NCBI RefSeq assembly: GCF_950066645.1
Contig: NZ_CATMFB010000004.1
Coordinates: 124,001 to 188,000 of the forward strand
From: an uncultured Thalassolituus sp.
GTDB taxonomy: Bacteria; Pseudomonadota; Gammaproteobacteria; Pseudomonadales; Oceanobacteraceae
Length of the DNA stretch: 64,000 bases
Reading direction: 5' to 3'
The translations under genes were made by a program, and so were the position numbers. The notes under the pieces are model-generated. The model saw nothing but the letters and a program-made list of their open reading frames with translations. It ran no database searches and was not told the origin of the DNA. Of the stretch, positions 2,708 to 42,825 are shown in pieces (position 1 is the stretch's first letter; each line of letters opens with the position of its first letter).

Positions 2708-2717
2708 GGAGAACAGT

Positions 2718-3044
2718 ATGATTAAAGGTGGTATGGGCAACCTGATGAAGCAGGCCCAGAAGATGCAGGAACAGATGACCAAGGCACAGGAAGAGCTTGC
2801 TCGTGCCGAAGTCACCGGAGAATCCGGTGCGGGCCTGGTGAAAGTTACGATGACAGGGCGTCACGATGTGAAGCGCGTTGAACTGGATGATGCGATTCTT
2901 GGTGAAGACAAGGAAATGCTTGAAGATCTGCTGGCTGCAGCGGTGAATGATGCCGTGCGCAAGATTGAGCAGAACAATCAGGAACATATGGCGAAAATGA
3001 CCGCCGGTATGGGCCTGCCTGCAGGAATGAAACTGCCTTTCTGA
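2718..3044 (+). CDS. ybaB: YbaB/EbfC nucleoid-associated protein
   Basis: A 108-residue small DNA-binding protein of the YbaB/EbfC family, known to bind DNA as a dimer with a tweezer-like fold. The sequence shows the family's long N-terminal helix ([22 protein letters not shown]), the central strand motif [15 protein letters not shown], and the C-terminal helix around [15 protein letters not shown]. Length is the usual 105-110 residues. A GAGGAG ribosome binding site lies 7 bases before the ATG. It sits between dnaX and recR, as in most gammaproteobacteria, and is probably co-transcribed with them. Confidence 0.95.
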
Positions 3045-3048
3045 CCTC

Positions 3049-3576
3049 ATGACACAGAATGCGCCTGCCTATCAGAAATTGTGTGAGCAGCTGGACGACC
3101 TGCCGGGAGTAGGTCCGTCTGGTGCCCGCCGTCTGGCCGAGTGGCTGATTTATCAGTCCCGTGCGGAAGCACTGGCAGAAGTTCTCACAGCAGCGGCGGC
3201 TGAACCTTTGTGTGCAGGATGTAATACCACTCACGATGTAGCGGCCGAGTGTCGCTACTGTCGTGATTCCTCGGGTAGAACCCTGACCGTGGTTGCCAAT
3301 ATGGATGACCTGGCATTGCTGAGAGACGCAGGTTGTCGCCAACCTGTCTGGTGCCTTCATGGTGAGTTGTCTCCTTCCCGGGGGATTGGTCCGTCACAGC
3401 TCAATATTGATGCTTTTGTATCCCGTTCCCGGGAGGTAGACAGCATTCTCGTCGCAACAGCGGCGACAGTGGAGGGGCGTGTGACGGCAGATTACCTGAT
3501 CAGAAAGAGCCATGCTCCCGGAGACACCTGTACTCTGGTGGAGCTGTTGGACAGATATCGGAAATCTCAGACATGA
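3049..3576 (+). CDS. recR: Recombination mediator RecR, short C-terminus
   Basis: With RecF and RecO, RecR loads RecA on gapped DNA. The 175-residue product has the helix-hairpin-helix (LDDLPGVGPSGARRLA, 15-30), a four-cysteine zinc finger (C55, C58, C68, C71) and a Toprim-like segment (LSPSRGIGP near 108-115; ATAATVEGRVTADYL, 136-150). E. coli RecR has 201 residues and ends with a conserved GVPVGGELE..D..TL block; here the chain diverges after about residue 152 and stops early, so that block is missing. The stop overlaps the rnd start (ATGA), so the end is not a window artefact. No clear frameshift restores the missing motif. Identity is sure; full function is less so. Confidence 0.88.
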   Translation: MTQNAPAYQKLCEQLDDLPGVGPSGARRLAEWLIYQSRAEALAEVLTAAAAEPLCAGCNTTHDVAAECRYCRDSSGRTLTVVANMDDLALLRDAGCRQPVWCLHGELSPSRGIGPSQLNIDAFVSRSREVDSILVATAATVEGRVTADYLIRKSHAPGDTCTLVELLDRYRKSQT

Positions 3577-4724
3577 GTATGTTAAATCTGCCGGCGCCTC
3601 AGTGGGTCGAAAGCGATGATGCATTGGCGCAGATCTGCCAGCAGTGGTTACAAGAAGCCTGCCTGGCGCTCGATACCGAGTTCGTGAGAATGACGACGTT
3701 TTATCCGCAGCCAGGGCTGATTCAGGTCGCCACTCTGGAGGACTGTTGGTTAATCGACCCACTCGCTATCTCGGACTGGCAGCCCTTTGCTGATGTGCTG
3801 ACGGCGCCTGATGTCGTGAAGATATTTCATGCATGTGCTGAAGACCTTGAGGTCTGTCGTCGCCTTTGTGGTGTTGTTCCGCAGCCTTTGTTCGATACGC
3901 AGCTGGCGATGGCGCTGGCAGGTGAAGGGAGCTCCGTCGGTTTTCAGAAGGCCGTAGAGTCGCTTCTGGGGATTGCTATTCCTAAAGAAGCCACTCGCTC
4001 AGATTGGTTGAAAAGACCCCTGAGTGACGTACAGATTGACTACGCCACGGCGGATGTTTACTTCCTGAGGCGCTTGTATCCGGGGCTGCGCGAGCGTCTG
4101 GAAGACACCGGGCGACTGGTCTGGTTGCAGGAAGAGGCTGAGCGTACGGTGCAGGCAGCAGCAGAAGCTGAAACCGATCTCAAGGCCAGCTATCGGCGTG
4201 TGAAACTCGGTTGGAAGCTGCGCCCGCTGGAACAGAACATACTTCAGTCGTTATCAGAGTGGCGGGAGCTTGAGGCCCGCAGGCTGGATGTCCCGAGGAA
4301 TAAAGTCGCCGACGATCAGACACTTTGGAATCTTGCTCGCTTTAAGGCACGCAATCGCGACCAGCTGAGTAAAGCTGGTATGCGCTCAAATATCATCAGA
4401 GAAAGTGCCCGGGAGGTGCTGAAACGCATCGAAGTGGCCCTTGGGCAACCTCCGGAGCAATGGCCGGAAGCTCTCACCAGACCTCTGTCTATCAGTGCTG
4501 GGAATCTGATGAAAACGCTGAAGAAAAAAGTGGTCGCCCGTGCGGAGGAGCTGCAGGTGCCTGCAGAAATCCTCGCGAATAAAAAAATGATCGAAGCCCT
4601 GGTCCGGGCCCGGGGAAAAACGGTGCCAGAGCCGTTGCAGGGATGGCGCTACTCTGTGATTACCCAAGAATTAACTGTGCTGCTTGAGCAGTCAACCGAC
4701 CCTGCGGAAGAGAGTGATGAGTAA
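3573..4724 (+). CDS. rnd: Ribonuclease D
   Basis: 3'-to-5' exoribonuclease involved in tRNA 3' maturation. The 383 residues begin with a DEDDy exonuclease domain: LDTEFVR supplies D34 and E36, HACAEDLEV supplies D91, and YATAD (157-161) supplies the catalytic Tyr and Asp. An HRDC-type RNA-binding domain follows around 210-290 (LEARRLDVPRNKVADDQTLWNLA). Length is close to E. coli RNase D (375). The ATG overlaps the recR stop by three bases, implying translational coupling, and the end overlaps ycgL by 8 bases. An alternative start two codons downstream cannot be excluded. Confidence 0.95.
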   Translation: MSMLNLPAPQWVESDDALAQICQQWLQEACLALDTEFVRMTTFYPQPGLIQVATLEDCWLIDPLAISDWQPFADVLTAPDVVKIFHACAEDLEVCRRLCGVVPQPLFDTQLAMALAGEGSSVGFQKAVESLLGIAIPKEATRSDWLKRPLSDVQIDYATADVYFLRRLYPGLRERLEDTGRLVWLQEEAERTVQAAAEAETDLKASYRRVKLGWKLRPLEQNILQSLSEWRELEARRLDVPRNKVADDQTLWNLARFKARNRDQLSKAGMRSNIIRESAREVLKRIEVALGQPPEQWPEALTRPLSISAGNLMKTLKKKVVARAEELQVPAEILANKKMIEALVRARGKTVPEPLQGWRYSVITQELTVLLEQSTDPAEESDE

Positions 4725-5001
4725 AATCCTTTGTGATGTTTTCAAAACGCGCAAAAAAGACGAAATGTACCTGTACGTGACCAAAAAAGATGGGATGTCA
4801 CGTGTGCCAGATGAGCTTAAAGAGATGTTTGGTCAGCCACAGCTGGCAATGACCATACTGCTCACCCCTGAGAAAAAGCTCGGGCGTGCGGATGCGGCCA
4901 AAGTCATCGAACAGCTGGAGGAAAACGGTTTTTACCTGCAGATGCCGCCCATGAGAGAGACCTATATGCTGGACCTCTTTACTAAGCGCGATCCTGAATG
5001 A
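4717..5001 (+). CDS. ycgL: YcgL domain protein
   Basis: A 94-residue YcgL (UPF0745) family protein of unknown biochemical role. The N-terminus KILCDVFKTRKKDEMYLYV and the centre RVPDELKEMFGQPQLAM and KKLGRADAAKVIEQLEENGFYLQMPP are characteristic. Start taken at ATG 4717, inside the rnd end with an AGAG-type ribosome binding site; an upstream start at 4684 adds residues not seen in the family. The rnd-ycgL-ycgN order is a recurring gammaproteobacterial arrangement, which hints at a link with RNA metabolism or cell division (inference). Confidence 0.92.
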   Translation: MSKILCDVFKTRKKDEMYLYVTKKDGMSRVPDELKEMFGQPQLAMTILLTPEKKLGRADAAKVIEQLEENGFYLQMPPMRETYMLDLFTKRDPE

Positions 5002-24752: not shown

Positions 24753-27700
24753 ATGATTTCTGATATTCATGCAGCTCTTGAATTCTGCCTGTTGAAAGAC
24801 AGGTTTCCAGTGCGGTCAGCGCTTAAACGGGCGGAGACTCTGCCGGAAGAAAAACGCCAGAAAAAACTGGCGGAGCTGTTGCAACGGGTTCAGAAAAGTC
24901 AGGAAATCGCGGGCTCACGCGAGGTGACGCCCCCTCTCAGGTACCCTGAAGGTCTCCCCGTATGTGAACGCAGAGAAGAAATTCTGGACGTTATACGAAA
25001 CCATCAGGTTGTTGTGATCGCTGGTGAAACAGGCTCCGGGAAAACCACGCAGTTACCAAAGCTGTGCCTGGAGGCCGGGTTAGGTCGCTACGGTCGTATT
25101 GGTCATACTCAGCCCCGCAGACTGGCTGCCCGCGCCGTTGCACAACGTATTGCAGAAGAGTTGGGTGGAGAGCTTGGTGGCCTTGTCGGATATCAGGTGC
25201 GTTTCACGGATCAGAGTTCGGATCAGAGCCGTATTAAGGTAATGACAGACGGGATTCTGCTTGCTCAGACACAACGGGATCGCTTTCTGAATGAGTACGA
25301 CTGCATCATCATCGATGAGGCTCATGAACGAAGCCTCAATATTGATTTCCTGCTGGGGTACCTCCGACAGTTGCTGCCGCAGCGCCCGGATCTTAAAGTT
25401 ATTATTACCTCTGCCACCATTGATGTTGAGCGGTTTTCACGTCATTTCAGCAACGCGCCCGTTATTGAAGTGTCAGGGCGTACATTTCCCGTAGAAGTGC
25501 GTTATCGCGGGCTGGTCAGGGCGGATGACGATCAGGAAGACCGCAGTCTTTTTGAGGGGGTGCGGGATGCCTTGAGTGAGCTGCGTGAAGAAGATAAGCG
25601 CAGTGGTCGCCCGGGAGATGTCCTCGTTTTCCTGCCCGGCGAGCGTGAAATCCGGGAATGTGCTGATTATCTCCGTCGTCAGGCGCTCCCAGCGACCGAC
25701 ATCCTGCCTCTTTACGCCCGTCTCAGCGGTGCAGATCAGCAGAGGATTTTTAAACCCCACGGCGGGCGTCGGATCGTACTCAGTACGAATGTGGCCGAGA
25801 CATCGCTGACGGTTCCCGGCATTCGTTATGTTATTGACTCTGGTGTGGCGCGGATAAGTCGCTACAGCTATCGCACCAAAGTACAGCGGCTTCCGGTTGA
25901 GGCCATCTCTCAGGCCAGTGCCAATCAGCGGGCAGGGCGCTGTGGTCGGACCGAGCCCGGTGTCTGCATCCGCTTGTATGAAGAAGAGGATTTCGCCAGT
26001 CGACCAGAATTTACTGACCCCGAAATCCGCCGGACAAACCTTGCCAGCGTCGTGCTTCAGATGTTGCACCTGCGACTGGGCGATATCCGTCACTTTCCTT
26101 TCGTTGATGCCCCCGACGAACGCTATATCAAAGATGGCTTTAATCTGTTGCAGGAACTACAGGCTGTCGATGCCTCACGGAAGATCACAGATATCGGTCG
26201 TATCATCGCCCGCCTGCCGGTAGATCCTCGTATCGGACGAATGCTGATTGAGGCCTCGGAACGTCAGTGCGTTAATGAGGTGATGATTGTGGCAGCGGCT
26301 CTGACCGTTGCCGACCCGAGGGAGCGTCCGCCTGAGAAGCAGCAGGCGGCGGCTGAAAAGCACCGGCTCTGGGCGGATGAAGATTCTGATTTTGTTTCAT
26401 TGATAAACCTCTGGAATGCCTACGAAGAACAGCGTCAGGAACTGTCACAGAATCAACTCCGTAAATGGTGTCAGAAACACTTTCTCAGCTATATGAGGAT
26501 GCGCGAGTGGCGGGATATCCACCGCCAGCTTCATCTGCTCTGTCGGGATATCGGTTTTACTGTTAATTCCACGGTTGCAGGGTATGAGGTTGTTCATAAA
26601 TCGCTACTCGCGGGAATGCTGAGTCACATCGGCTTCAGGGCTGAGCAGAAGGAATATCTGGGGGCCCGAAACCGCAGATTCGTGATGGCACCGGGCAGTG
26701 CCAGCTATAAAAAGCCACCTAAGTGGATCATGGCGGCAGAGCTTGTTGAAACCACGCGCCTGTATGCACGTACCATCGCAAAAATTGAGCCTGAGTGGAT
26801 TGAAGAGTGCGGACGCCATTTACTTAAGTATCAGTATTTTGAGCCGCACTGGCAGGAAAAACGCGGTCAGGTCGTGGCATCAGAGCAGTCGGCGTTGTAT
26901 GGGCTTATTGTGAACCCAAGACGCCGTGTTGATTATTCCCGTACTCACCCTGAAGAAGCGCATGAGATCTTTATTCAGGAAGCAATGGTTGCCCGGAATC
27001 TGCGTTCTGACGTTGCTTTCTATCAGAAGAATCTTCGGTTGCTTGATGAGGTGACTGAGTATGAGGAGAAGTCCCGGCGTCGTGATCTGGTTATTGACGA
27101 TCAGGTCATTGCGGGGCATTACCGTGAGAATATCCCTCAGCAGGTCTGCAGCCGGCGCAGTCTTGAAAGTTGGTATAAAAAAAGCAGCGCAGAAGAGAAG
27201 CAAAGACTCCTGTTCAGCCGCGATTTTCTGTTGTCTGATGCAGCCCGCGGCGTGTCTCAGGCCGATTATCCAACCGAGCTTGAGATCAATGGCCTGGCGT
27301 TCCCTCTCAGTTATGCATTTGCTCCCGGCGCCATCGATGATGGGGTCACCCTCAGTGTCCCTGTCGCTATGTTGGCGCAGGTGCCTGAGCCCCGGGCTGA
27401 ATGGCTGGTTCCCGGCTTTCTGCATAATAAAGTAGTGGCCTTACTGAAAGGCTTGCCCAAAACAGTGCGTAAGCAGTTTGTCCCCGTGCCGGATACCGCC
27501 ACCCGTTTTCTCCAGCAGGTCTCGGCAGGACAGGGCAGTCTCTATTCTGCACTCGCTGAGTTTCTCAATCAGACGTTGCGTCCGAAGATCTCTCCTGATG
27601 AGCTTAAGGCGATCGACCTTGAGCCGCACCTCCTGATGAACTACAGCGTTGTCGCTGAGGGTAAGTGTCTGGCACAGAGCCGGGACCTGAACCGTTTGCG

Positions 27701-28631
27701 TGACGAGTTCAGTGGTGCTGCTCAGACGGCTGTTGTAGAGCTCACTGATCAGCGCTATCAATTGAGTAATGTTGCTGACTGGAACTTTGGCCATCTTCCT
27801 GAGACGACCCAATCTGAAGTTGGTGGCTTACCTGTCCGGGCTTATCCATGCCTGAGGGCAACCAGAGAAGGTGTCGAGCTTACGGTCGAATCTGATGAGA
27901 ATGAGGCGAACGCGTCCCACAGGGAAGGGCTGCTGCGGTTGATCAGGCAGAACCTGCCGGACCTGGACCGTCAGCTTAAGCAATATATTCAGAAAACCAT
28001 GCGGCCACACTGGCTACTCGCGAAGGGAATGGGGAGCGAGCAGGAGCTGACGCAATCTCTGATTGATGCAAGCTTTACGCATGTTTTCCTCCCTCATGGG
28101 GAGCCCTTACCGAGAGCAGAAGAAGACTACCGGGCACGACTTGAACGTCGTGGTGATCTGAGTGACTTTGCTGAGTTTCTCGTTTCTCTCTTTATCGAGT
28201 GGCTGAAAATCCGTCATCGCACCTTAAAAAGTCTGCGTGGCGCGGTATCAATGGATAAGGCGATGGCGTTCAGTGACGCTAAAGCGCATATGGAACGACT
28301 GCTGGAGCCCGGCTTCATGGTGGCGACGCCGTTAGAAAAATTAAAATTTTTTACCCGCTACCTGAAAGGAATCGAATACAGGATCGACAAACTTCAGGGA
28401 AACCTTCCAAGGGACCGCCAATCAATGATCGAATTTGCGTCATTGTTTGAGCCCTGGCAGGAAGCGGTCCGACGTAATGAGCCGGAAAAGCGAGAGCTGC
28501 TGGAAGAATTTCGTTGGCTTCTTGAGGAGTGGCGGGTATCACTGTTTGCTCAACCTCTGGGGACGCAGGAACCGGTTTCCCTGAAACGACTGGAAGCGCG
28601 CTGGAAAGAATTGGTCCACTTTTCTTCCTGA
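24753..28631 (+). CDS. hrpA: ATP-dependent RNA helicase HrpA
   Basis: A 1292-residue DEAH-box helicase, close in length to E. coli HrpA (1300), which rescues stalled or collided ribosomes and remodels mRNA. Walker A is GETGSGKT (91-98), DEAH lies at 188-191, SAT in ITSATID, and the helicase C-terminal motif QRAGRCGRTEPG is present. The helicase-associated and OB-fold domains and the long HrpA-specific C-terminal region (DUF3418) follow. It stands alone between two intergenic regions. Confidence 0.95.
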   Translation: MISDIHAALEFCLLKDRFPVRSALKRAETLPEEKRQKKLAELLQRVQKSQEIAGSREVTPPLRYPEGLPVCERREEILDVIRNHQVVVIAGETGSGKTTQLPKLCLEAGLGRYGRIGHTQPRRLAARAVAQRIAEELGGELGGLVGYQVRFTDQSSDQSRIKVMTDGILLAQTQRDRFLNEYDCIIIDEAHERSLNIDFLLGYLRQLLPQRPDLKVIITSATIDVERFSRHFSNAPVIEVSGRTFPVEVRYRGLVRADDDQEDRSLFEGVRDALSELREEDKRSGRPGDVLVFLPGEREIRECADYLRRQALPATDILPLYARLSGADQQRIFKPHGGRRIVLSTNVAETSLTVPGIRYVIDSGVARISRYSYRTKVQRLPVEAISQASANQRAGRCGRTEPGVCIRLYEEEDFASRPEFTDPEIRRTNLASVVLQMLHLRLGDIRHFPFVDAPDERYIKDGFNLLQELQAVDASRKITDIGRIIARLPVDPRIGRMLIEASERQCVNEVMIVAAALTVADPRERPPEKQQAAAEKHRLWADEDSDFVSLINLWNAYEEQRQELSQNQLRKWCQKHFLSYMRMREWRDIHRQLHLLCRDIGFTVNSTVAGYEVVHKSLLAGMLSHIGFRAEQKEYLGARNRRFVMAPGSASYKKPPKWIMAAELVETTRLYARTIAKIEPEWIEECGRHLLKYQYFEPHWQEKRGQVVASEQSALYGLIVNPRRRVDYSRTHPEEAHEIFIQEAMVARNLRSDVAFYQKNLRLLDEVTEYEEKSRRRDLVIDDQVIAGHYRENIPQQVCSRRSLESWYKKSSAEEKQRLLFSRDFLLSDAARGVSQADYPTELEINGLAFPLSYAFAPGAIDDGVTLSVPVAMLAQVPEPRAEWLVPGFLHNKVVALLKGLPKTVRKQFVPVPDTATRFLQQVSAGQGSLYSALAEFLNQTLRPKISPDELKAIDLEPHLLMNYSVVAEGKCLAQSRDLNRLRDEFSGAAQTAVVELTDQRYQLSNVADWNFGHLPETTQSEVGGLPVRAYPCLRATREGVELTVESDENEANASHREGLLRLIRQNLPDLDRQLKQYIQKTMRPHWLLAKGMGSEQELTQSLIDASFTHVFLPHGEPLPRAEEDYRARLERRGDLSDFAEFLVSLFIEWLKIRHRTLKSLRGAVSMDKAMAFSDAKAHMERLLEPGFMVATPLEKLKFFTRYLKGIEYRIDKLQGNLPRDRQSMIEFASLFEPWQEAVRRNEPEKRELLEEFRWLLEEWRVSLFAQPLGTQEPVSLKRLEARWKELVHFSS

Positions 28632-28737
28632 GTTGAATCCGGTCGTACTTTACTAACGTATAGTTTGTAATCTTCGTGTGGAAGGTTAACTTGATGACGG
28701 GTTCGCCCGCTTATCCCAAACAGAAAAGGACAGAACG

Positions 28738-29064
28738 ATGAAAGATTCTAACAAAGCACTTGGCACAATCCTGGGTACTGCATTCGTTGCGGCTCTGGCA
28801 TCAACTCCTGCGCATGCGGCAGAAAACCCGTTTGCTTCAGCAGAGCTGCAGCAGGGTTACAAAGTTGCAATGCACCATGAAGGCAAATGTGGTGAAGGCA
28901 AATGCGGTGGTGAGAAGGCCGATAAAGAAGGTAAGTGCGGCGAAGGCAAATGCGGTGGTGAGAAAGCCGACAAAGAAGGTAAGTGTGGCGAAGGCAAATG
29001 CGGTGGTGAAAAAACCGAAAAAGAAGGTAAGTGTGGTGAAGGCAAGTGCGGCGGTAAGAGCTGA
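28738..29064 (+). CDS. hvfA: HvfA/bufferin-like copper-binding RiPP precursor
   Basis: A 108-residue exported precursor: signal peptide (about 1-28, cleaved near HAA-EN), a short neutral stretch, then eight EGKCG motifs in four pairs (Cys 51, 56, 67, 72, 83, 88, 99, 104) separated by GEKADK or GEKTEK. The EGKCG pentapeptide is the modified unit of HvfA from Haemophilus influenzae, where a multi-iron enzyme turns the cysteine and its neighbour into an oxazolone/thioamide copper ligand; bufferins of other bacteria are related. Here the maturase (DUF692) and its partner (DUF2063) follow in the same operon. Ribosome binding site AAAGGA lies 8 bases upstream. A role in periplasmic copper buffering or uptake is inferred. 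Confidence 0.93.
   Translation: MKDSNKALGTILGTAFVAALASTPAHAAENPFASAELQQGYKVAMHHEGKCGEGKCGGEKADKEGKCGEGKCGGEKADKEGKCGEGKCGGEKTEKEGKCGEGKCGGKS
28879..29052 (+). repeat. 48-bp coding tandem repeat (16-residue units)
   Basis: Codons 48-105 of the RiPP precursor repeat with a 48-base period, encoding EGKCGEGKCGGEKADK-like units (about 3.6 copies). Copies differ mainly at synonymous sites, so the array is old enough to have drifted at DNA level while the peptide was held constant. Copy number could vary between strains. Confidence 0.9.
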
Positions 29065-29069
29065 TCGTC

Positions 29070-29921
29070 ATGCCTTCTGCTGAACTGCGAGGTTCAGGCC
29101 TCGGGTTGCGGCGGGCCATGTGCCGGCCGTTGCGTGAGCGGATCGAGGGTGGTGAAACTCCACCCTTCGATTTTCTTGAGGTTGCACCTGAAAACTGGAT
29201 AGGCGCTGGCGGCAGGCTCGCTCAGCAGCTGCGCTGGTTCACAGAGCGCTATCCACTGGTCTGTCATGGCCTGTCACTGTCTATCGGAAGTCTCGATCCC
29301 CTGGATGAAGCCTTCGTCAGAGAGGTGGCTGAGTTTCTGAAGACACATAATGTAGCTCTCTACAGTGAGCATCTCAGTTATTGTTCAGATCATGGCCATA
29401 TGTACGATCTGATGCCGTTGCCCTTTACCCGGGAGACTGTCAGAAGGGTGTCTGAGCGTATCAGTAGAGTGCAGGATATACTTGGACAACGTCTGGTTGT
29501 AGAGAATGTCTCTGCTTATCTCGAACCTGGTAAAGAAATGAGTGAGCCTGAGTTTATCTGTGAGGTGCTTGCGGCGGCGGATTGTGATTTGTTGCTTGAT
29601 GTGAATAACGTGTACGTTAACTCGGTCAATCACGGCTACGATCCGATTGAATATCTTCGGGCCATGCCGACCGGGCGGATACGCTATATGCATCTCGCCG
29701 GGCATTACACCGAAAGCGAGAATCTGCTCATTGATACGCATGGCTCTGATGTGAGTTCCCCTGTCTGGGAGCTTCTTGAGCAGGCTTACCGCATACACGG
29801 TGTGCGCCCGACATTGCTCGAGCGGGACTTCAATATTCCTCCGCTCGACGATCTCTTTGATGAACTGAGCCAGTTACGACGAGTGCAGTCTTCTGTAGGG
29901 GAAGTCCGTGAGTTCAGCTGA
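29070..29921 (+). CDS. hvfB: DUF692 multinuclear iron oxidative enzyme (RiPP maturase)
   Basis: A 283-residue DUF692/MNIO protein, a TIM-barrel oxygenase that uses an iron cluster to modify cysteines in RiPP precursors. Metal-ligand and active-site motifs are all present: EVAPENWIG, CHGLSLSIGS, SEHLSYC, VENVSAYL, LLLDVNNVYVNSVNHG, MHLAGH, DTHGSDV and LLERDFNIP. It follows the precursor by 5 bases and overlaps the partner gene by 14 bases. By analogy with HvfB, it should install oxazolone/thioamide pairs on the EGKCG motifs; the exact chemistry cannot be read from sequence. Confidence 0.93.
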   Translation: MPSAELRGSGLGLRRAMCRPLRERIEGGETPPFDFLEVAPENWIGAGGRLAQQLRWFTERYPLVCHGLSLSIGSLDPLDEAFVREVAEFLKTHNVALYSEHLSYCSDHGHMYDLMPLPFTRETVRRVSERISRVQDILGQRLVVENVSAYLEPGKEMSEPEFICEVLAAADCDLLLDVNNVYVNSVNHGYDPIEYLRAMPTGRIRYMHLAGHYTESENLLIDTHGSDVSSPVWELLEQAYRIHGVRPTLLERDFNIPPLDDLFDELSQLRRVQSSVGEVREFS

Positions 29922-30642
29922 CGTTCAGAAGGCATTTGCGCGTGACATCCGCACTCAGGGTGGGGATGTCTATTCTGATGATCCGCGGATGCAGGTCTAT
30001 CGCGATCTGTTTTTCAATAATGTGCGTGGCTTTATTGATAATACGTTTCCTGTCTGCGCGGAAGTTGTGGGTGAATCGTACTGGACCAGCCTATGCGAGC
30101 GTTTTTTCCGGGAGCACGCCTGCCGCACACCTTATTTTCTGAAGATATGTGAGGAATTCATTACCTGGTTGTCTGCTGACACCTCCCATTGGAGTCCGCA
30201 TTATCCGTTTCTTGCTGAGCTTGCACATTACGAGTGGCTGGAACTCGCTGTGGACGTGCTCGAAGCAGGGGATGTGGTGATTGATGAAACCGCTGATGTT
30301 GAAAATGACTTTCCTGTGATCAATCCCGCGCACATTCTGGCGGGATATCAATACCCGGTTCATACGATTTCAGCCGACAGCCTGCCAGAAGTTGAAGCGC
30401 CGACAGTTATGGTTGTCTATCGGGACGCTGATCTGAACGTCCGCTTTCTCAACCTGAATGGCCTTGCGCTGTCCCTTCTCATGAAATTGCGGCAGGAGCA
30501 GGTGAGAGGCCGGGACGCTGTTACGGATGTACTTACTCAGGCGGGTATTCCGGTGAGCGAGGTTGCGCTTAATGGTGGAACGGAGATTCTCAAGGATTGG
30601 CTGCAAAAAGGGATTGTTGTGGGTGCTGTAAAATCATCCTGA
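29908..30642 (+). CDS. hvfC: DUF2063 partner protein of the RiPP maturase
   Basis: A 244-residue protein with an N-terminal DUF2063 helical domain (QKAFARDIRTQ, MQVYRDLFFNNVRGFIDNTFPVCAEVVGESYW) and a C-terminal region (about 130-244) that in related proteins contacts the MNIO enzyme and the precursor. Start is GTG 29908, overlapping the maturase gene by 14 bases. In HvfABC- and bufferin-type systems this protein is needed for full modification, acting as the precursor-recognition partner. No DoxX-like gene or other transporter follows; the next gene is mlaA. Confidence 0.9.
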   Translation: MSSADVQKAFARDIRTQGGDVYSDDPRMQVYRDLFFNNVRGFIDNTFPVCAEVVGESYWTSLCERFFREHACRTPYFLKICEEFITWLSADTSHWSPHYPFLAELAHYEWLELAVDVLEAGDVVIDETADVENDFPVINPAHILAGYQYPVHTISADSLPEVEAPTVMVVYRDADLNVRFLNLNGLALSLLMKLRQEQVRGRDAVTDVLTQAGIPVSEVALNGGTEILKDWLQKGIVVGAVKSS

Positions 30643-30686: not shown

Positions 30687-31424
30687 GTGAAAGCCTCTCT
30701 CAACCGTTATTGGCAAATGCCCGCTATCGTGACCGGTGTAATGACGCAGCTCTGTATGGCAGGCGCGCATGCCGCCGAAGAGTACGATCCGTGGGAGAAA
30801 ACCAATCGTAAGATTTTTGCCTTCAATGAATTCATGGACAGAAACCTGTTGGTTCCTGTGGCAAAAACCTATGATGCCGTGACTCCCGATGCTGTTGATG
30901 CCGGGATCACCAACGTATTTCAGAATGCCATGGAGCCGCTGACCACAGTCAACGGTGTGGCGCAGTTTAAGTTTTCGCAGGCTCTGTCGGATACGGCCCG
31001 GTTTATTGTTAATTCAACGGTCGGCTTCTTTGGTGTATTTGACGTCGCTACACATATTGGTCTTGAAAAACATCATGAAGACTTCGGTCAGACGTTAGGG
31101 TACTGGGGCGTGGGAACCGGCCCGTATCTTATGGTGCCGTTTTTTGGCCCGAGAACGGTACGCCATGCGGTAGGACAGGGGGGTGATTATTTTACCCATC
31201 TTTCTTACACCTACTTTGGTGATAACCTGGGCGAAGATGCTGCTATGTTTGGTCTTAAAGCCGTTGATTTCCGCTCGGATCTTATGGCTTCTGAAGAATT
31301 TATTACCGGCGATCGTTACCTGTTTATCAGGAGTGCATATCTGCAGCGTCGTGAGTATCTGACCAATGATGGCAAGGTAGAGAATGAATTCGAGGATGAA
31401 TTCGGGATCTTCGAAGACGAATAA
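30687..31424 (+). CDS. mlaA: MlaA/VacJ phospholipid-transport protein
   Basis: A 245-residue MlaA (VacJ) family protein, the outer-membrane part of the Mla system that keeps the outer leaflet of the outer membrane free of phospholipid. The family signature is clear: YDPWEKTNRKIFAFN (34-48), PLTTVNG, RFIVNSTVGFFGVFD, EDFGQTLGYWGVG.GPYLMVPFFGP. Start is GTG 30687 with AGGAG upstream. Oddity: the signal peptide has a Cys (MTQLC) but not a proper lipobox, and cleavage after AHA is likely, so this MlaA may not be lipidated, unlike E. coli MlaA. Mla partners are not in the window. Confidence 0.93.
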   Translation: MKASLNRYWQMPAIVTGVMTQLCMAGAHAAEEYDPWEKTNRKIFAFNEFMDRNLLVPVAKTYDAVTPDAVDAGITNVFQNAMEPLTTVNGVAQFKFSQALSDTARFIVNSTVGFFGVFDVATHIGLEKHHEDFGQTLGYWGVGTGPYLMVPFFGPRTVRHAVGQGGDYFTHLSYTYFGDNLGEDAAMFGLKAVDFRSDLMASEEFITGDRYLFIRSAYLQRREYLTNDGKVENEFEDEFGIFEDE

Positions 31425-31464: not shown

Positions 31465-32766
31465 TTAGCGCTGGGGCAGGACGTCTTTCAGTTTTTCCCG
31501 CATTTTGCGAATAGCGTCAGCTGTTTCTTCCCAGCTGATGCATCCGTCAGTGACTGACAGGCCATATTCCAGATCGTCGAGATTCGCAGGGATGTTCTGG
31601 CGGCCATGTTTGATGTTGGACTCCACCATCAGACCAATAATGGACTTGTTACCCTCAAGGATCTGATTGGTGACGTTCTCCATTACCAGCGGCTGCAGTG
31701 CCGGGTTTTTGTTGGAGTTCTCGTGAGAGCAATCCACCATAATGTTCTGCGCCAGATCCGCTTTTGCCAGAGCTTCTTCGGCGATCTTCACATTGACTGA
31801 GTCGTAGTTAGGTTTGCCACCGCCGCCGCGCAGAACGACATGAGCGTATGGGTTGCCTTTAGTTTCGACGATCGAGACTTTACCCTGCTGGTCAATACCC
31901 AGGAACCGGTGCGGATTAGCAACTGACATTAGCGCGTTTGTAGCGACCGTCAGGCTGCCGTCTGTACCGTTCTTGAATCCTACCGCTGATGACAGGCCTG
32001 ATGCCATTTCGCGGTGTGTCTGAGATTCTGTCGTGCGCGCACCGATGGCTGACCAGGCAATCAGATCCTGCAGGTACTGGGGTGAGATTGGATCCAGTGC
32101 TTCTGTCGACAGCGGCAGGCCGAGTTCTGCGAGATCCAGAAGCAGACGTCTGGCGATGTGCAGGCCATCCTGAATCTTAAATGTGTCGTTCATGTAAGGG
32201 TCATTGATTAACCCTTTCCAGCCTACCGTGGTGCGGGGCTTTTCAAAGTAGACACGCATAACAAGGCAGAGTGTATCGCTGACTTCTTCTGCCAGGTCGC
32301 GTAAGCGTTGCGCATACTCTTTCGCTGCATCAACATCGTGAATAGAGCAGGGCCCTACTACAACGAAAATACGGTGATCTTTCCTGTCCAGAATGTCGCG
32401 GACTTCCTGGCGTCCTCTCTGAACGCTGATGACAGCTGAGTCAGAGATCGGCATCTCTTCCTTCAGTTGTTGTGGTGTGATCAGCGTGCTGATGCTTTCA
32501 ATGTTTAAATCTTCTACGCGGTTGTCGGTCATGTAGCTACCCGTTGTGCTTTCTGTTTTTTCTGTAGGGGGTTGTTTGGGTTCGGCAGATGTCGCTGCTC
32601 TGAGAGCGCCCTGTGTGATGGCCTCAAGTTGTTTCTGTCGCCCTTGTGGCGGGGTGTCTCCCCACTGCGAAACTGCAGCCACAGTCAGAGGCCAGCCGTC
32701 GTCTGTGCAGGCTTTGGCAATGGCGCTTTTGGTGCGGAAGTGTGTAACGACGTCTGCTGTCTTCAT
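31465..32766 (-). CDS. Cro-like domain fused to class-I DAHP synthase
   Basis: A continuous 433-codon frame. Residues 1-58 look like a phage Cro-type helix-turn-helix (MKTADVVTHF, AIAKACTDDGWPLTVAAVSQWGDTPPQGRQKQLEAIT); residues 59-78 are a polar linker; residues 79-433 are a complete AroF/AroG/AroH-type 3-deoxy-7-phosphoheptulonate synthase, the first shikimate-pathway step, with VGPCSIHD, GARTTESQTHREMASG and KNGTDG. From M79 (codon at 32532) the length (355) equals that of stand-alone enzymes, so translation could also start there, although I see no strong ribosome binding site. The first start codon lies in a perfect inverted repeat. The DNA-binding domain could make the enzyme a self-regulator; this is inference. 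The feedback amino acid is not predictable. Confidence 0.9.
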   Translation of the reverse strand: MKTADVVTHFRTKSAIAKACTDDGWPLTVAAVSQWGDTPPQGRQKQLEAITQGALRAATSAEPKQPPTEKTESTTGSYMTDNRVEDLNIESISTLITPQQLKEEMPISDSAVISVQRGRQEVRDILDRKDHRIFVVVGPCSIHDVDAAKEYAQRLRDLAEEVSDTLCLVMRVYFEKPRTTVGWKGLINDPYMNDTFKIQDGLHIARRLLLDLAELGLPLSTEALDPISPQYLQDLIAWSAIGARTTESQTHREMASGLSSAVGFKNGTDGSLTVATNALMSVANPHRFLGIDQQGKVSIVETKGNPYAHVVLRGGGGKPNYDSVNVKIAEEALAKADLAQNIMVDCSHENSNKNPALQPLVMENVTNQILEGNKSIIGLMVESNIKHGRQNIPANLDDLEYGLSVTDGCISWEETADAIRKMREKLKDVLPQR

Positions 32767-38174: not shown

Positions 38175-38963
38175 ATGAAATTCCTCAAAAAAGCTTCTCT
38201 GGCTGCTTCCATCGCTGCAGTGTCTTTCGCAGCAAATGCTGAACTGGTAGCAATGGATGAGTCTGCACTGGCTGCAGCAACTGGTCAGGCTGGTATCGAT
38301 ATCGACATCAACTTGGGTGACTCTGCCTCTGCAATCAGCATCGGTTCTGTAACCTGGACTGATACTGCAGACGGTACTGGCTCAGACATTTCTGGTGGTG
38401 GTGTTTCTCTGTCTACCATCACACTGGGTTCTGCGACTGGTGATGACGTTGTTCTGACTAATGTTATCGACGTTAACGCTGACGGCGAAATCGTGATTCA
38501 GACTGGTTCTGTAAACAACCTGCGTCTTGGTATTGCGAGCATCGACACTGTCGGTACTAACTCTGCCAACCTGGCTCGTAACGTATCTCTGGATATGAAC
38601 CTGACTGGTTCTACTATCACTATCGGCGCTACTGCTGATAACGATGGCGACAGCAATGCTGATACTCTGATCACTACTCGTGGTGGTTCTGTTGAGATCA
38701 CTGATGGTTCTGCTGACCTGCTGAACGGTGCAATCGGCCTTTCTGGTATTCAGGCTTATGGTCTGGATGCGAGTGGTAACCGTTCAGGTGGTCTGTCTAC
38801 TGACGCAGACATCCTGTTCAACAGCAACGGTATCACCGTTTCTAACCTGAACCTTGCTGGTACTATCGAACTGGGTGACGTTGCTCTGGGTGACGCTTCT
38901 ATTGGTTCTGTTGCAATCAGCAACATCGAAATGTCTGCTTCTCTGACCATCTCTGGTCACTAA
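38175..38963 (+). CDS. filA: FilA-like secreted surface protein
   Basis: A 262-residue exported protein: signal peptide 1-22 (SFAANA-EL), then MDESALAAATGQAGIDIDINLG, a start shared by FilA/DUF6160-type proteins, and a mature part very rich in Thr, Ser, Gly, Asp and Ile (TITLGSAT, ATADNDGDSNADTLIT). There is no Cys. GGAGTG precedes the ATG. Codons are heavily biased to a few (GGT, TCT, CTG, AAC), as in strongly expressed genes. It opens a surface cluster with a C39-like peptidase and outer-membrane barrels, as in the Acinetobacter fil genes. Role inferred: a major surface or fibre component. Confidence 0.75.
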   Translation: MKFLKKASLAASIAAVSFAANAELVAMDESALAAATGQAGIDIDINLGDSASAISIGSVTWTDTADGTGSDISGGGVSLSTITLGSATGDDVVLTNVIDVNADGEIVIQTGSVNNLRLGIASIDTVGTNSANLARNVSLDMNLTGSTITIGATADNDGDSNADTLITTRGGSVEITDGSADLLNGAIGLSGIQAYGLDASGNRSGGLSTDADILFNSNGITVSNLNLAGTIELGDVALGDASIGSVAISNIEMSASLTISGH

Positions 38964-38976
38964 GAGCAGCCTTCGG

Positions 38977-39002
38977 AAAAGCCCGCTTCGGCGGGCTTTT
39001 TT
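38977..39002 (+). terminator. Terminator after the FilA-like gene
   Basis: AAAAGCCCGC, loop TTCG, GCGGGCTTTTTT. A strong UUCG-loop terminator 14 bases after the stop. Downstream genes of the cluster would be expressed at lower level by read-through or from their own promoter near 39005-39105. Confidence 0.92.
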
Positions 39003-39132
39003 GTGTTTGCTGTTTACAAAAAACTTAAAAAAAACAACCAATTGGCTTGGTCGGGTGTGTGATTTTATGTAACATGTGTATTGGCAATAAATATTATAAT
39101 AACAATACGGGAGGGGCTGCGGCCTTTTTACA

Positions 39133-40065
39133 GTGCTTGTCATTTTATTGGGATCAATCATCGGCTTCGCCATGGTGCACGAGTTTGCACTGGTGAATGA
39201 CCGTCAGCAGGGCGACACGATCGTTCGTGTGGCTGTGAATGAGGACTTCCAGGAAGATAAAGTCGTTAATGTAGAGCCACTATCGACAAAGCGTTTTAAA
39301 AACGTTGTTCGCCAGGCCTACGACTACTCCTGTGGTTCCGCCGCTCTTACAACGCTTCTTGATTATTATCTTGGTAGAAACTTCCAGGAGCGTCAGGTAA
39401 TGGAAGGTCTTCTCCGCTTCGGCGAAACAGAACGAATTGTTCAGCGCCGCGGTTTCTCACTTCTCGACATGAAGCGCCTGGTCACCGCGCTCGGTCATCC
39501 ATCAGGAGGGTTCAAGGCGGAAGCATCCGACCTTGAAAGCTTAGATCACCCAGCTATCGCACCGATTCAGTATGCGGGATTCAAACACTTTGTTGTTATC
39601 CGCACGGTGTACGATGGCCGGGTCTATGTTGCCGACCCTGCATTGGGCAACATTTCTTTTACTCTGAATCGTTTTCTCGAAGTCTGGGACAACAATGTTC
39701 TCTTTATAGTGTTTCCGAACGGCCACAAGCCTGCCAGCGGGTTAGAGCTGCACGAGGAGGATATGCGTTTTGTGTCTGACTACGTGATCGCAGAAAATGC
39801 ATTTAAAGAGTTTCCGCACTTCATGATTGCAGATACCCATAAGCTGAATAACGCAATAGCGGCGTCGTACAATAATGTTCAGTCAAGCTATGAAGTTCAG
39901 CGGGACGAAAACGGCGATATCGTTCGCGATGATAACGGTAACGCGGTTTATGAATATGTTTCGAGAGACGCCAGTGATGGTGTCAGTTCTGATGATTTCA
40001 ACCTGGCTGTACCGGCCGCTGAAGGCGACGTGATCTCTAAAGAGTTGCGCTTCAGAAGAAAATAA
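39133..40065 (+). CDS. C39-like cysteine peptidase-fold membrane protein
   Basis: A 310-residue protein with an N-terminal membrane anchor (1-16) and a C39 bacteriocin-processing-like peptidase fold: AYDYSCGSAALTTLLDYYLG holds the nucleophile Cys, FKHFVVIRTVYDGRVYVADPALGN the His and Asp. The order (Cys, His, Asp) matches papain-like C39 enzymes. Start is a GTG at 39133; GGGAGGGG stands rather far upstream (39108-39117). A position right after a FilA-like secreted substrate suggests it processes cluster proteins (inference). Similar genes occur as FilB in Acinetobacter clusters. Confidence 0.78.
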   Translation: MLVILLGSIIGFAMVHEFALVNDRQQGDTIVRVAVNEDFQEDKVVNVEPLSTKRFKNVVRQAYDYSCGSAALTTLLDYYLGRNFQERQVMEGLLRFGETERIVQRRGFSLLDMKRLVTALGHPSGGFKAEASDLESLDHPAIAPIQYAGFKHFVVIRTVYDGRVYVADPALGNISFTLNRFLEVWDNNVLFIVFPNGHKPASGLELHEEDMRFVSDYVIAENAFKEFPHFMIADTHKLNNAIAASYNNVQSSYEVQRDENGDIVRDDNGNAVYEYVSRDASDGVSSDDFNLAVPAAEGDVISKELRFRRK

Positions 40066-40092
40066 TAACGATAAGGATTACAGGTTAGTACC

Positions 40093-41142
40093 ATGACTAT
40101 TCGAATTAAAGCAATCGCACTGTCTGTTCTTCTCGCGTCCGTGCCGTTCGCACAGGCCGATGAATCTGCTGATCTTGATCGGGCTCGTGAGGCGCTTTCA
40201 AAGCAGGATAACGATGCTGATACAGAAAAAGCGCTTGAACAGGTTTTTGAAGCTGCAGAAAAAAACTACTCCTTGTTGAAAAAGGGCGGGATGGCGCTGA
40301 ATTATGGTGTTGATTACACCTACTATGGTGATCAGCGAATCGGTCTGGAAATCGAAAACCAGGATGGTAATGCCGTAATCCGTAATGCGGATGTTACTCC
40401 GGTTGCAAGCCATACCATTACCAATACTTTCACATTTGATTACGGTCTGCTCAATAACCTGACGATCAGTGGACGATTGCCACTCGTTGCCAAGTTTGAG
40501 ACTGAAGATGAACTTACTGGTTACGGTATTGGGGATATCTCGGGCAGCCTGCGCTGGCAGCCATTTGAATATATCCCAGGTCGTATGTCTCATACTGTCT
40601 TTGGCTCCTTGCGTCTTCCTACCGGCGATAGTCCGTATGAGATTGATGAAGACACTTCGCTGGCAACTGGCTCGGGCTCCTGGGGTTTGACCGGTGGCTG
40701 GAGCGTGTCAAAAGTATTGGACCCTGTTGTCCTGTTTGGATCGAGTTCAATCGGTTACACCTTGCCTGTGACCGGCCTGAATCAAGTCAAGGATGGCGGT
40801 AACGTCCTTCGTGAAGTAAACAACGGCCTGAACCTGTCGTTCTCTATGGGCTTCGCATATTCACTCTCTTACGATGTATCTCTGAGCGCGTCTTTTCAGG
40901 GGTCATACAGCCTTGAGTCTGAGTTCACTCTATATGATGGTGTTAATGGAGGAGAGCGTACCTCCACCGTAGGAAGTCAGATGAGCGGCATAATGAACTT
41001 CGCACTTGGTGTGCGGGTGTCTCCAAAAACAATTGCTAACGTAAACGTTGGCTTTGGTGTTACTGAGTTGTCTCCGGATATTATTCTCGGCCTCTCTCTG
41101 CCTATCGATATCGAAGGTGTGAAGCCAGCTGAGGGCAACTAA
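40093..41142 (+). CDS. Predicted outer-membrane barrel protein of the fil cluster
   Basis: A 349-residue exported protein: signal peptide 1-22 (SVPFAQA-DE), a helical segment (DLDRAREALSKQDNDADTEKALEQVFEAAEKNYS, about 26-60) and a beta-barrel-like remainder with alternating strands (ALNYGVDYTYYGDQRIGLEI, NTFTFDYGLLNNLTISGRLPLVA). No C-terminal Phe. It follows the C39-like gene by 27 bases and precedes the FadL-like gene. The barrel resembles putative outer-membrane transport proteins; I recognise no narrow family. FilC is a possible counterpart. Confidence 0.7.
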   Translation: MTIRIKAIALSVLLASVPFAQADESADLDRAREALSKQDNDADTEKALEQVFEAAEKNYSLLKKGGMALNYGVDYTYYGDQRIGLEIENQDGNAVIRNADVTPVASHTITNTFTFDYGLLNNLTISGRLPLVAKFETEDELTGYGIGDISGSLRWQPFEYIPGRMSHTVFGSLRLPTGDSPYEIDEDTSLATGSGSWGLTGGWSVSKVLDPVVLFGSSSIGYTLPVTGLNQVKDGGNVLREVNNGLNLSFSMGFAYSLSYDVSLSASFQGSYSLESEFTLYDGVNGGERTSTVGSQMSGIMNFALGVRVSPKTIANVNVGFGVTELSPDIILGLSLPIDIEGVKPAEGN

Positions 41143-41193
41143 TCAGTCATGACTGATAAAACGATAAGAACTAACAGTTTATGGCGGTTTGAT

Positions 41194-42825
41194 ATGCGGA
41201 AGTTAGCACTTTTAGCGATGATGATTCCGGGGTTGGCTAATGCTGAGCTTCTCCAGAATATGTTTATCGACAATAAAGCTATGTCCCTGGGGAATGCGGT
41301 AACAGCCGACCCAACGGGGATTATGGATATTCATTTTAATCCAGCGGGTCTTACCAAGCTGGAGGGGCGTCAGTTTCAACTGCAGTTGCATTCTATTATT
41401 CTCAAGTCAGAGGCTGAGTTCAGTCTTCCTGACGACTACGATGCGAACAACGCAGGCTTGCTGGACATTTCAGAAGACCCCGTAATTAACGAAGGAAAGA
41501 GTCGCGCCCATGTGGCTGCCTACTTTCCTTTTGTCGGAACGGTAGGCATCCCTTTACCGATTGTGGCGCTTCCTTCCGTTGGTATTTCTGTTAAGCCGCC
41601 TGGCTCTAAATTTACTTTTGCTAATGGCTTGTATGCACCTATGGCTGCAGGCTTCTCTAAGGACGATGACGACCCTGGTCGATATCAGGCAAAAGAAGTT
41701 GCGATTCAGCGCCTCACCTACCTGTCACCGTCTTTCGGGTATCAGGTAACGGACGAATTCTCCGTGGGGGGAAGCCTCCTGTTCTCGCATCAGGCAGTCG
41801 CCCTTGAGCAGGATATCCGTGCGCCTAACGTTCTGGTGGGTGTACTTGAAGAGCTTCAGGATGCTTTTGGGTGTTTTGATGATGAAGGTAACACCGTTGG
41901 GTCGGATCCGCTTGCGCCGTTTATCCTCCTTTGTGGTGGTAATGTCGGCCCGTATGATGATGTTGGTACGCTCAATATTGAAATGACCGAAAGCCTGTCC
42001 CCATCGTTTAACCTTGGGATGCTTTGGGAACCGAATAGCTGGTTTAAATTCGGCGCGGTGTATCAGAGTGAAGCAAAGAGTCGCCTGAAAGGTGATTTTG
42101 ACCTTCAGTACACAGACGACTTCGCAGAGTTCTTTGAGACGTTTAACTCGTCAATTATCGGTGCGGTTACTGGAGCAATCTTCTCTTTTCCGCGTGGTCA
42201 GAAATATGAGGCTGGACATGTCAGCACCGAGCTGACGTATCCACAGCACTTCCAGGCGGGTGTGAAGTTCAGGTATTTCGATATCTTTCACCTGAATCTG
42301 GATGCAGGTTGGACCGATTTCGATGAGTGGGACAGTCTCGATCTGAAGTTTGATCGCAACGTAAGCTTCCTTTCTACAGCTCAGTTGATGTCACCTGGTA
42401 TTGTGACCCCAAACACTCTGGAGATGCCTCTTAACTTCCGCAGCGTCTGGACCTACAACATCGGTATGGCGATGGATCTGAACTCACGTATTCAGTTGCG
42501 TGCGGGTATTGAGCCTCGTAAGAGTTCAATCCCGGATGATTCTCGCAGCCTCCAGGCGCCGATTGGCTTTGCGCGGCTTTACGCTGTTGGTCTTGGCTAC
42601 CAGTGGGACCTTGATACTGTGATTGATCTGTCGATGAGCTTTATGAAGTCTGTTGAACATATCAAAGCAGACCCTCAGAGCAATGAGGACGAGTATCCTA
42701 ATTCGAGTAACTCTCTGAACCGGAACTGTATTACATGCGTAGTAACCAACCCGTACCCAGGACTCGACGTCGATACCAAGTTAACGATCGGTCACGCGGG
42801 TATCAGTTTCCGCACCAAGTTCTGA
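41194..42825 (+). CDS. OmpP1/FadL-family outer-membrane protein
   Basis: A 543-residue outer-membrane barrel of the OmpP1/FadL/TodX family, which moves hydrophobic molecules across the outer membrane. The signal peptide is MRKLALLAMMIPGLANA; the mature start AELLQNMFIDNKAMSLGNAVTADPTGIMDIHFNPAGLTKLEG contains the family NPAG signature, and the end GISFRTKF carries the terminal Phe. The start at 41194 (RKLALL) is preferred over the track start at 41149 because it gives a clean signal peptide. A hydrolase follows three genes on, so a lipid substrate is possible. FilD is a possible counterpart. Confidence 0.85.
   Translation: MRKLALLAMMIPGLANAELLQNMFIDNKAMSLGNAVTADPTGIMDIHFNPAGLTKLEGRQFQLQLHSIILKSEAEFSLPDDYDANNAGLLDISEDPVINEGKSRAHVAAYFPFVGTVGIPLPIVALPSVGISVKPPGSKFTFANGLYAPMAAGFSKDDDDPGRYQAKEVAIQRLTYLSPSFGYQVTDEFSVGGSLLFSHQAVALEQDIRAPNVLVGVLEELQDAFGCFDDEGNTVGSDPLAPFILLCGGNVGPYDDVGTLNIEMTESLSPSFNLGMLWEPNSWFKFGAVYQSEAKSRLKGDFDLQYTDDFAEFFETFNSSIIGAVTGAIFSFPRGQKYEAGHVSTELTYPQHFQAGVKFRYFDIFHLNLDAGWTDFDEWDSLDLKFDRNVSFLSTAQLMSPGIVTPNTLEMPLNFRSVWTYNIGMAMDLNSRIQLRAGIEPRKSSIPDDSRSLQAPIGFARLYAVGLGYQWDLDTVIDLSMSFMKSVEHIKADPQSNEDEYPNSSNSLNRNCITCVVTNPYPGLDVDTKLTIGHAGISFRTKF

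Follow-up and report, generated by a model that had tools for sequence, protein, structure and literature searches.

What would three consecutive short genes, the first of them coding for a cysteine-rich peptide with eight EGKCG motifs, do for an uncultured Thalassolituus sp.? The genes lie at positions 28738-30642 of the window, by which we mean the whole 64,000-nucleotide stretch analysed (contig NZ_CATMFB010000004.1, positions 124,001 to 188,000), and our analysis indicates that they very probably form an EGKCG-class captophorin (Buf_EGKCG/oxazolin) cluster, whose product would be a 5-thiooxazole peptide sequestering periplasmic Cu(I) under envelope stress. An earlier note on this DNA had read the genes as an HvfABC-like operon whose product is a copper-binding peptide of the periplasm with modified cysteines, and this proposal is backed by curated profiles, conserved residues and the biochemistry of the family; its coordinates for the three open reading frames (ORFs) and for the eight-motif precursor were all correct.

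A probable three-gene captophorin operon

The first gene (28738-29064, +, ATG start) codes for an hvfA-like EGKCG captophorin precursor of 108 residues, which scored 74.7 bits against NF050137, the KCGExKCG_twice HvfA-family metallophore model (cut-off 19.5). Five bases past its stop begins an hvfB-like gene (29070-29921, +) for an MNIO (DUF692) enzyme of 283 residues, a predicted 5-thiooxazole former with 414.7 bits on the HvfB family maturase model NF003818 (cut-off 360) and 346.1 on PF05114 (cut-off 25); the poor DUF692 profile score that the earlier note had named as telling against its reading did not occur. The third gene (29908-30642, +, GTG start) overlaps hvfB by 14 bases and codes for an hvfC-like partner of 244 residues and PME type 1, that is, a DUF2063 domain (PF09836, 85.1 bits against a cut-off of 27.2) followed by an NGO1945_C/RRE-type domain (PF22106, 68.6 against 27), with 239.6 bits on the HvfC family model NF050145 (cut-off 142). 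In the profile search that had been proposed, all three proteins exceeded an NCBIfam cut-off of their class and, with these scores, the operon pattern is, judged from sequence, not a chance one.

The assignment to a class is narrower than this. The MNIO fell under the cut-off of the BufB model (NF050167, 278.7 against 310), which places it in the HvfB/Buf_EGKCG class and not with bufferin 1 or 2. It also scored below the ApyH and ChrH cut-offs, and neither HvfB nor HvfC matched any of the anti-phage defence models. The nearest solved MNIO structure is 3BWW (E 8.3e-64), which is 72.4% identical to the Haemophilus HvfB (PMC13419390). For HvfC, an AlphaFold2 model with a mean predicted local distance difference test (pLDDT) of 84.6 had its best PDB match in 3DEE (NGO1945; E 6.7e-11), to which sequence comparison also relates it, followed by TglHI (8HCI).

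The surroundings and active-site residues of the enzyme were compared over 110 MNIO loci, comprising the window's own, 29 from relatives and 80 named loci, the latter being the best 80 of 579. An HvfC-like gene was found at 109 of the 110 (window included); at the sole locus lacking one (L087) the contig stops 430 bases past the MNIO. A precursor with at least two EGKCG or DGKCG motifs was found at 82 loci. Among the genomes examined, 46 of 55 contained an MNIO relative and 35 of 50 the EGKCG precursor domain, own genome included in both counts. The arginine pair R14-R15 is kept almost throughout (108/110 and 109/110, respectively), and N179, N180, D222, H224, D253 and F254 are conserved at all 110 loci. 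R14-R15 and D253-F254 would be the counterparts of FonB R15-R16 and D249-F250, and N179/N180, D222 and H224 are candidate metal ligands corresponding to HvfB N175, D242 and H244, an equivalence drawn from motif context, as the FonB and HvfB sequences themselves are not in the alignment. Variants link these FonB and HvfB residues to specificity or activity (PMC13097082; PMC13419390).

The precursor and its repeat

The EGKCG motifs of the precursor start at residues 48, 53, 64, 69, 80, 85, 96 and 101; all eight are exact and all are paired, giving four EGKCGEGKCG pairs at distances of 16, 16 and 16 residues. At the DNA level this is a 48-nucleotide tandem repeat (28879-29059, +; 3.8 copies, 88% matches in Tandem Repeats Finder), each unit coding for one pair plus a six-residue spacer. 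The N-terminus, with a basic start, a hydrophobic core and an AHA|AENPF end, resembles a Sec signal peptide as judged by eye. Pfam gave no match for the precursor, and the only NF050137 matches in the window genome are three overlapping ones in this operon. The paired, evenly spaced motifs had been taken by the earlier note as distinctive; tandem pairs turned out instead to be a hallmark of the family, present in 76 of the 82 precursors. These precursors have between 2 and 14 motifs, most often eight (17/82), and the commonest pair-to-pair periods among the loci examined are 15 (34 intervals), 17 (25) and 16 (24). The repeat of the window precursor is not unusual within its class.

Predicted chemistry and mechanism

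The products fontiphorin, oxazolin and gonophorin carry 5-thiooxazoles, with a loss of 4 Da per cysteine (PMC13097082; reassignment also in PMC13419390), and members of the captophorin family bind copper, the MBP-FonA product taking up to four Cu (PMC13097082). By analogy with them, the window operon would share the 5-thiooxazole chemistry, the copper binding and the stress role. According to this, the precursor would be made in the cytoplasm and presented by HvfC, the DUF2063/RRE partner, to the diiron MNIO HvfB, which with O2 would oxidise Lys-Cys units to 5-thiooxazoles at about -4 Da per site. At most eight such rings could form on each precursor, with a total of about -32 Da if all eight sites were used; for comparison, FonBC acted on a two-motif substrate and not on a one-motif one, two being the smallest number modified (PMC13097082). 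The modified peptide would then leave through Sec, export following modification, and in the periplasm its sulfur-bearing rings could capture Cu(I) and keep it sequestered when metals or oxidants stress the envelope.

HvfX and an unlinked sigma module

The lack of a DoxX-like gene, which the earlier note had thought to set this operon apart, did not hold up as a distinguishing feature. Many such loci lack a neighbouring DoxX gene (of the 58 named loci flanked by 2.5 kb or more on each side, 16 have one), and the window genome does carry an HvfX-family gene at an unlinked locus. Two DoxX genes were found in this genome (L002 and L003). The one at L003 (C1:262569-263174) scored 229.5 bits against the HvfX family model NF050144 (cut-off 80); the one at L002 resembles it only remotely (32% over some 95 residues). 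The HvfX gene stands behind a gene for an extracytoplasmic function (ECF) sigma factor and one for a 64-residue zf-HC2 anti-sigma factor. This sigma/anti-sigma/HvfX stretch (L155 5717-7178; C1:261716-263177) adjoins a universal-stress-protein gene.

Similar arrangements recur in other genomes. An HvfB-class enzyme (above 300 bits) is present in 41 of 55 genomes, own included, and HvfX (above 150 bits) lies within 4 kb of the enzyme in 20 of these and away from it in 16, the window genome among them, "unlinked" being less sure for G036 and G044, where the enzyme is near a contig start. At the same threshold HvfX was not found in the remaining five (G004, G005, G018, G026 and G045), of which G004 and G005 are 80% and 84% complete. 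Seventeen unlinked HvfX loci were fetched, that of G028 counted, and 14 of them (L117-L130) were read as modules. Sigma and zf-HC2 hits occur in the stretch of 13 modules (not in that of L126), the sigma hit of L127 being on the opposite strand; three further unlinked HvfX loci outside the 14 (L132, L136 and L146, from G036, G044 and G048) gave neither hit in their stretches. In eight of the 14 modules (L118-L121, L123-L125, L127) a second EGKCG-type precursor, in L125 mostly with GSCG motifs, stands between anti-sigma and HvfX, and no MNIO was found in the stretches examined of these eight. One of the relatives with a second precursor, G003, has a further MNIO at a distance. No second precursor was found in the other six, including that of the window genome. 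The parts stand together at two loci. In G043 (L134) the hvfA/hvfB genes and a divergent HvfX are separated by sigma and zf-HC2 anti-sigma hits, and in Methylococcales bacterium STB_1 (L087, one of the 80 named loci) the stretch 1559-4813 runs from sigma and anti-sigma through a KCG-repeat precursor and a long DoxX-like ORF (413 residues) to the MNIO. The genome G028 (L130; 93% complete) has a sigma/anti-sigma/HvfX module, and no MNIO and no EGKCG domain were found in it, which speaks against strict dependence.

A shared upstream motif

The pattern TGTAAGAA-N12..16-CGAC occurs once in the 3.7-Mb window genome, 32 bases before hvfX; the reversed control of this strict pattern occurs twice, so that the count is uninformative and only the place matters. 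Over 29 genomes it was not enriched either (47 matches against 72 for the reversed control), and eight of the 47 matches precede hvfA or module genes (G000, G001, G002, G003, G008, G014 and, with two, G016). A looser form, TGTAA[GT]-N15..18-CGAC, precedes 11 of the 14 modules and, in the relatives' set, 10 of 27 hvfA genes; this set leaves out three of 30 relative loci with no recognised precursor (L018, L020, L027). In 400 dinucleotide shuffles the mean was 0.02 (module) and 0.03 (hvfA) regions, with at most one in any shuffle. A position weight matrix (PWM) was derived from the sites of 11 modules, omitting L121 and L129, which nearly duplicate others, and L130, which lacks a site. It gave 13-25 bits at the ten hvfA regions, nine of which reached p 0.005, the minimum attainable with 200 shuffles, and the tenth, L021, p 0.015. 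This test is post hoc, as the motif was first spotted by eye on module and hvfA regions together, the matrix being made from module sites only, and the ten hvfA regions, several of them from near relatives, are not independent (L017 and L019 are near-identical; L010, L014 and L015 come from one genus). Five genomes have the motif at both loci (G007, G014, G016, G024, G032). Strict hits in G001, G003 and G008, each some 980-1020 bases ahead of hvfB and none of them among the eight, were rejected as promoters, since that of G003 lies inside the hrpA coding sequence and the other two share its position.

The TGTAAGAA...CGAC motif resembles the Neisseria sigmaE consensus (-35 GTMAGBWTT, -10 CGTCTAAH, spacer 12-13 nucleotides; PMC2893595). 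In Haemophilus, the DoxX-hvf genes need RpoE2, which is encoded elsewhere together with a zinc-binding anti-sigma (ZAS) factor, and they respond to hypochlorous acid (HOCl; PMC7907618). The link to a sigma factor is already known, because it has been described for Neisseria and Haemophilus. The split arrangement, that is, a module with a second precursor and HvfX apart from hvfABC, was not found described in the literature available to us, no search having been aimed at exactly this, and it is a modest variant of the known arrangement.

Tentatively, the captophorin system could be split in this genus and its neighbours into an hvfABC locus, which would make the modified peptide, and a sigma/anti-sigma/(second precursor)/HvfX locus serving for sensing, for a second substrate modified in trans by HvfBC and for the HvfX step in the membrane; in some relatives the sigma factor would drive the two together. 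The window species would have lost the second precursor or never acquired it, and its hvfABC, like that of most of the genus, would have escaped sigma control with HvfX still under it. We regard this scheme as less likely than not, all the more so because only one of eight hvfA regions in the genus (G007) has the motif. HvfX may act in the hvfABC pathway in spite of being encoded apart, as its neighbourhood and the motif suggest.

Alternative readings of the operon

Several observations weigh against the reading of the operon as a captophorin cluster answering to envelope stress. No ECF-like site was found before the window hvfA, where the best PWM score was 8.6 bits (p 0.075), for a site within hrpA, some 175 bases ahead of hvfA; a sigma-70 promoter scan was empty before hvfA, the one regional hit lying inside hvfC and the count being below that of shuffles; and copper-regulator sites before hvfA, looked for by eye only, were not recognised. 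HvfX is unlinked, none being present in the operon, and 28 of the 110 MNIO loci yielded no EGKCG or DGKCG precursor. The precursor reached 55.9 bits on NF050188, the narrow HvfA equivalog model (cut-off 95), and because it matched this model only below cut-off we place it, by profile, in the domain family and not as a close HvfA copy. Lastly, its AlphaFold2 model is disordered (mean pLDDT 45.8, predicted template-modelling score 0.14; 16 homologues).

ECF control of the window operon is not claimed, as neither the strict pattern (whose sole hit precedes hvfX) nor the PWM gave a site. A CueR-type dyad before hvfA was rejected, by eye only. For another member, with 17-residue repeats, a beta-helix has been published; the disordered model of the window precursor lends no support to such a fold and, with 16 similar sequences, does not exclude it.

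The main role of the operon could be envelope defence against oxidative or hypochlorite stress through thiol/HOCl buffering, with copper binding secondary. The RpoE2-dependent, HOCl-induced doxX-DUF692-DUF2063 genes of Haemophilus (PMC7907618) and the Neisseria operon under sigmaE with its ZAS anti-sigma (PMC2893595) speak for this, as do the ECF sigma and zf-HC2 anti-sigma genes that precede HvfX in the window genome. Against it stand the copper bound by family members (PMC13097082) and the lack of an ECF site at the window hvfA and at seven of the eight hvfA upstream regions tested in the genus, and we regard a primary defence role as unlikely.

With regard to the chemistry of a copper-sequestering captophorin, the earlier note had expected oxazolone/thioamide pairs, a product of the methanobactin type. 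This was indeed the original assignment for oxazolin, and the two groups, which differ by a swap of O and S positions, are hard to tell apart (PMC13097082). Alkylation-assisted heteronuclear multiple bond correlation (HMBC) led to the reassignment of oxazolin and to the assignment of fontiphorin and gonophorin as 5-thiooxazoles (PMC13097082), and the researchers behind the HvfB work have since made the same reassignment for oxazolin (PMC13419390), which supersedes the oxazolone/thioamide product for those of HvfA, FonA and NgoA. In addition, the window MNIO is an HvfB-family member by NF003818 and stays far under the cut-off of the MbnB model (TIGR04159, 57.1 bits against 325). Oxazolone/thioamide pairs are, in our view, very improbable here.

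That this copy of the operon is decaying or inactive is just as hard to believe. Such a state would fit the missing linked DoxX gene and the missing ECF-like site at its promoter, as well as the single precursor gene of the window genome, where G001, G002, G003, G006 and G008 of the same genus have two, the second at the unlinked locus. In contrast, all three reading frames are intact, the active-site residues are conserved, an intact HvfX gene is present elsewhere in the genome, and a linked HvfX is likewise absent from all eight same-genus operon stretches re-read (L147-L154). Least probable of all is an unmodified, metallothionein-like cysteine-rich protein next to DUF692 and DUF2063 genes that serve something else, for while eight thiols could hold Cu(I) unaided, the clustering with an MNIO and its partner, the exact substrate motif and the conserved active-site residues argue against it.

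Neighbouring genes and other features of the window

Upstream of hvfA lies an hrpA-like helicase gene (24753-28631), and the intergenic region between the two (28632-28737, +) has neither a consensus sigma-70 promoter nor an ECF-type TGTAAG-N-CGAC site by promoter scan, pattern and PWM. Downstream of hvfC, after a gap of 44 bases, follows an mlaA-like gene (30687-31424, +), which we left out of the operon, as mlaA is not named alongside captophorins in the portions of the literature available. Its product scored 119.9 against PRK15091, below the cut-off of 375, and shows by eye no clear lipobox and instead an AHA|AEEY site like those of signal peptidase I.

Further along, a 3-deoxy-D-arabino-heptulosonate 7-phosphate (DAHP) synthase ORF (31465-32766, -) has an in-frame N-terminal Cro-like domain (PF14549, 42.1 bits against 30.2), possibly a regulator-enzyme fusion or else a start called too early. 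At 38175-42825 (+), a DUF6160 gene (38175-38963) adjoins a gene for a peptidase C39-family protein (39133-40065, PF03412); next come an ORF with no hit in Pfam (40093-41142, +) and a gene for a FadL/TodX-like protein of the outer membrane (41149-42825, +).

Significance and relation to known systems

The window operon is an ordinary member of a known and abundant class, to which it adds one more species; the wider group of MNIO-PME1 clusters has been reported from roughly one in two reference genomes of Pseudomonadota (PMC13097082). What most deserves a second look is the split sigma/HvfX module. Scoring DoxX as absent from the local neighbourhood underestimates HvfX, which is unlinked in 16 of the 41 HvfB-class genomes. 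Unlinked precursors that stand beside an ECF sigma suggest substrates modified in trans, as has been raised for bufferin precursors without MNIO neighbours (PMC12452194), and because of this suggestion the unlinked precursor/sigma/HvfX module makes the function of HvfX testable through co-regulation and gene removal.

With bufferins 1 and 2 (BufA/B/C) the operon shares an MNIO with a DUF2063 partner, a precursor that is probably exported and a predicted copper role, but the bufferin precursors come from other families (DUF2282, 6/12-Cys; PMC12452194) and the window enzyme stays below the BufB cut-off. The sigmaE (rpoE/MseR) operon of Neisseria (NMB2140-2145/NGO1944-1948; PMC2893595, PMC2954202) likewise ties an ECF sigma and a zinc-binding anti-sigma to DoxX, a precursor, DUF692 and DUF2063. 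In Neisseria these form one operon, whereas here the sigma/anti-sigma/HvfX module is apart from hvfABC and the window hvfA is without a recognisable site. The Buf_EGKCG/oxazolin family (PMC12452194) is comparable in its signal peptide, which the window precursor probably has as well, in a variable number of repeats of two EGKCG each and in variously combined core genes with or without DoxX; its stated repeat unit is of 17 residues and that of the window precursor of 16. Fontiphorin (fonABC of Fontimonas thermophila) and the captophorins (PMC13097082) have in common with it the EGKCG (Lys-Cys) substrate, the MNIO with PME1 and the Arg-Arg and Asp-Phe counterparts, FonA having seven sites where the window precursor has eight. 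Lastly, HvfABCX/oxazolin of Haemophilus influenzae (PMC13419390) differs in that HvfA has three AEGKCGEGKCG motifs (six Cys) instead of four pairs, that hvfX is part of the hvf operon and not unlinked, and that the window precursor stays under the HvfA equivalog cut-off; the two systems share the paired EGKCG motifs, the HvfB MNIO, the HvfC DUF2063/RRE partner and an HvfX-family gene in the genome.

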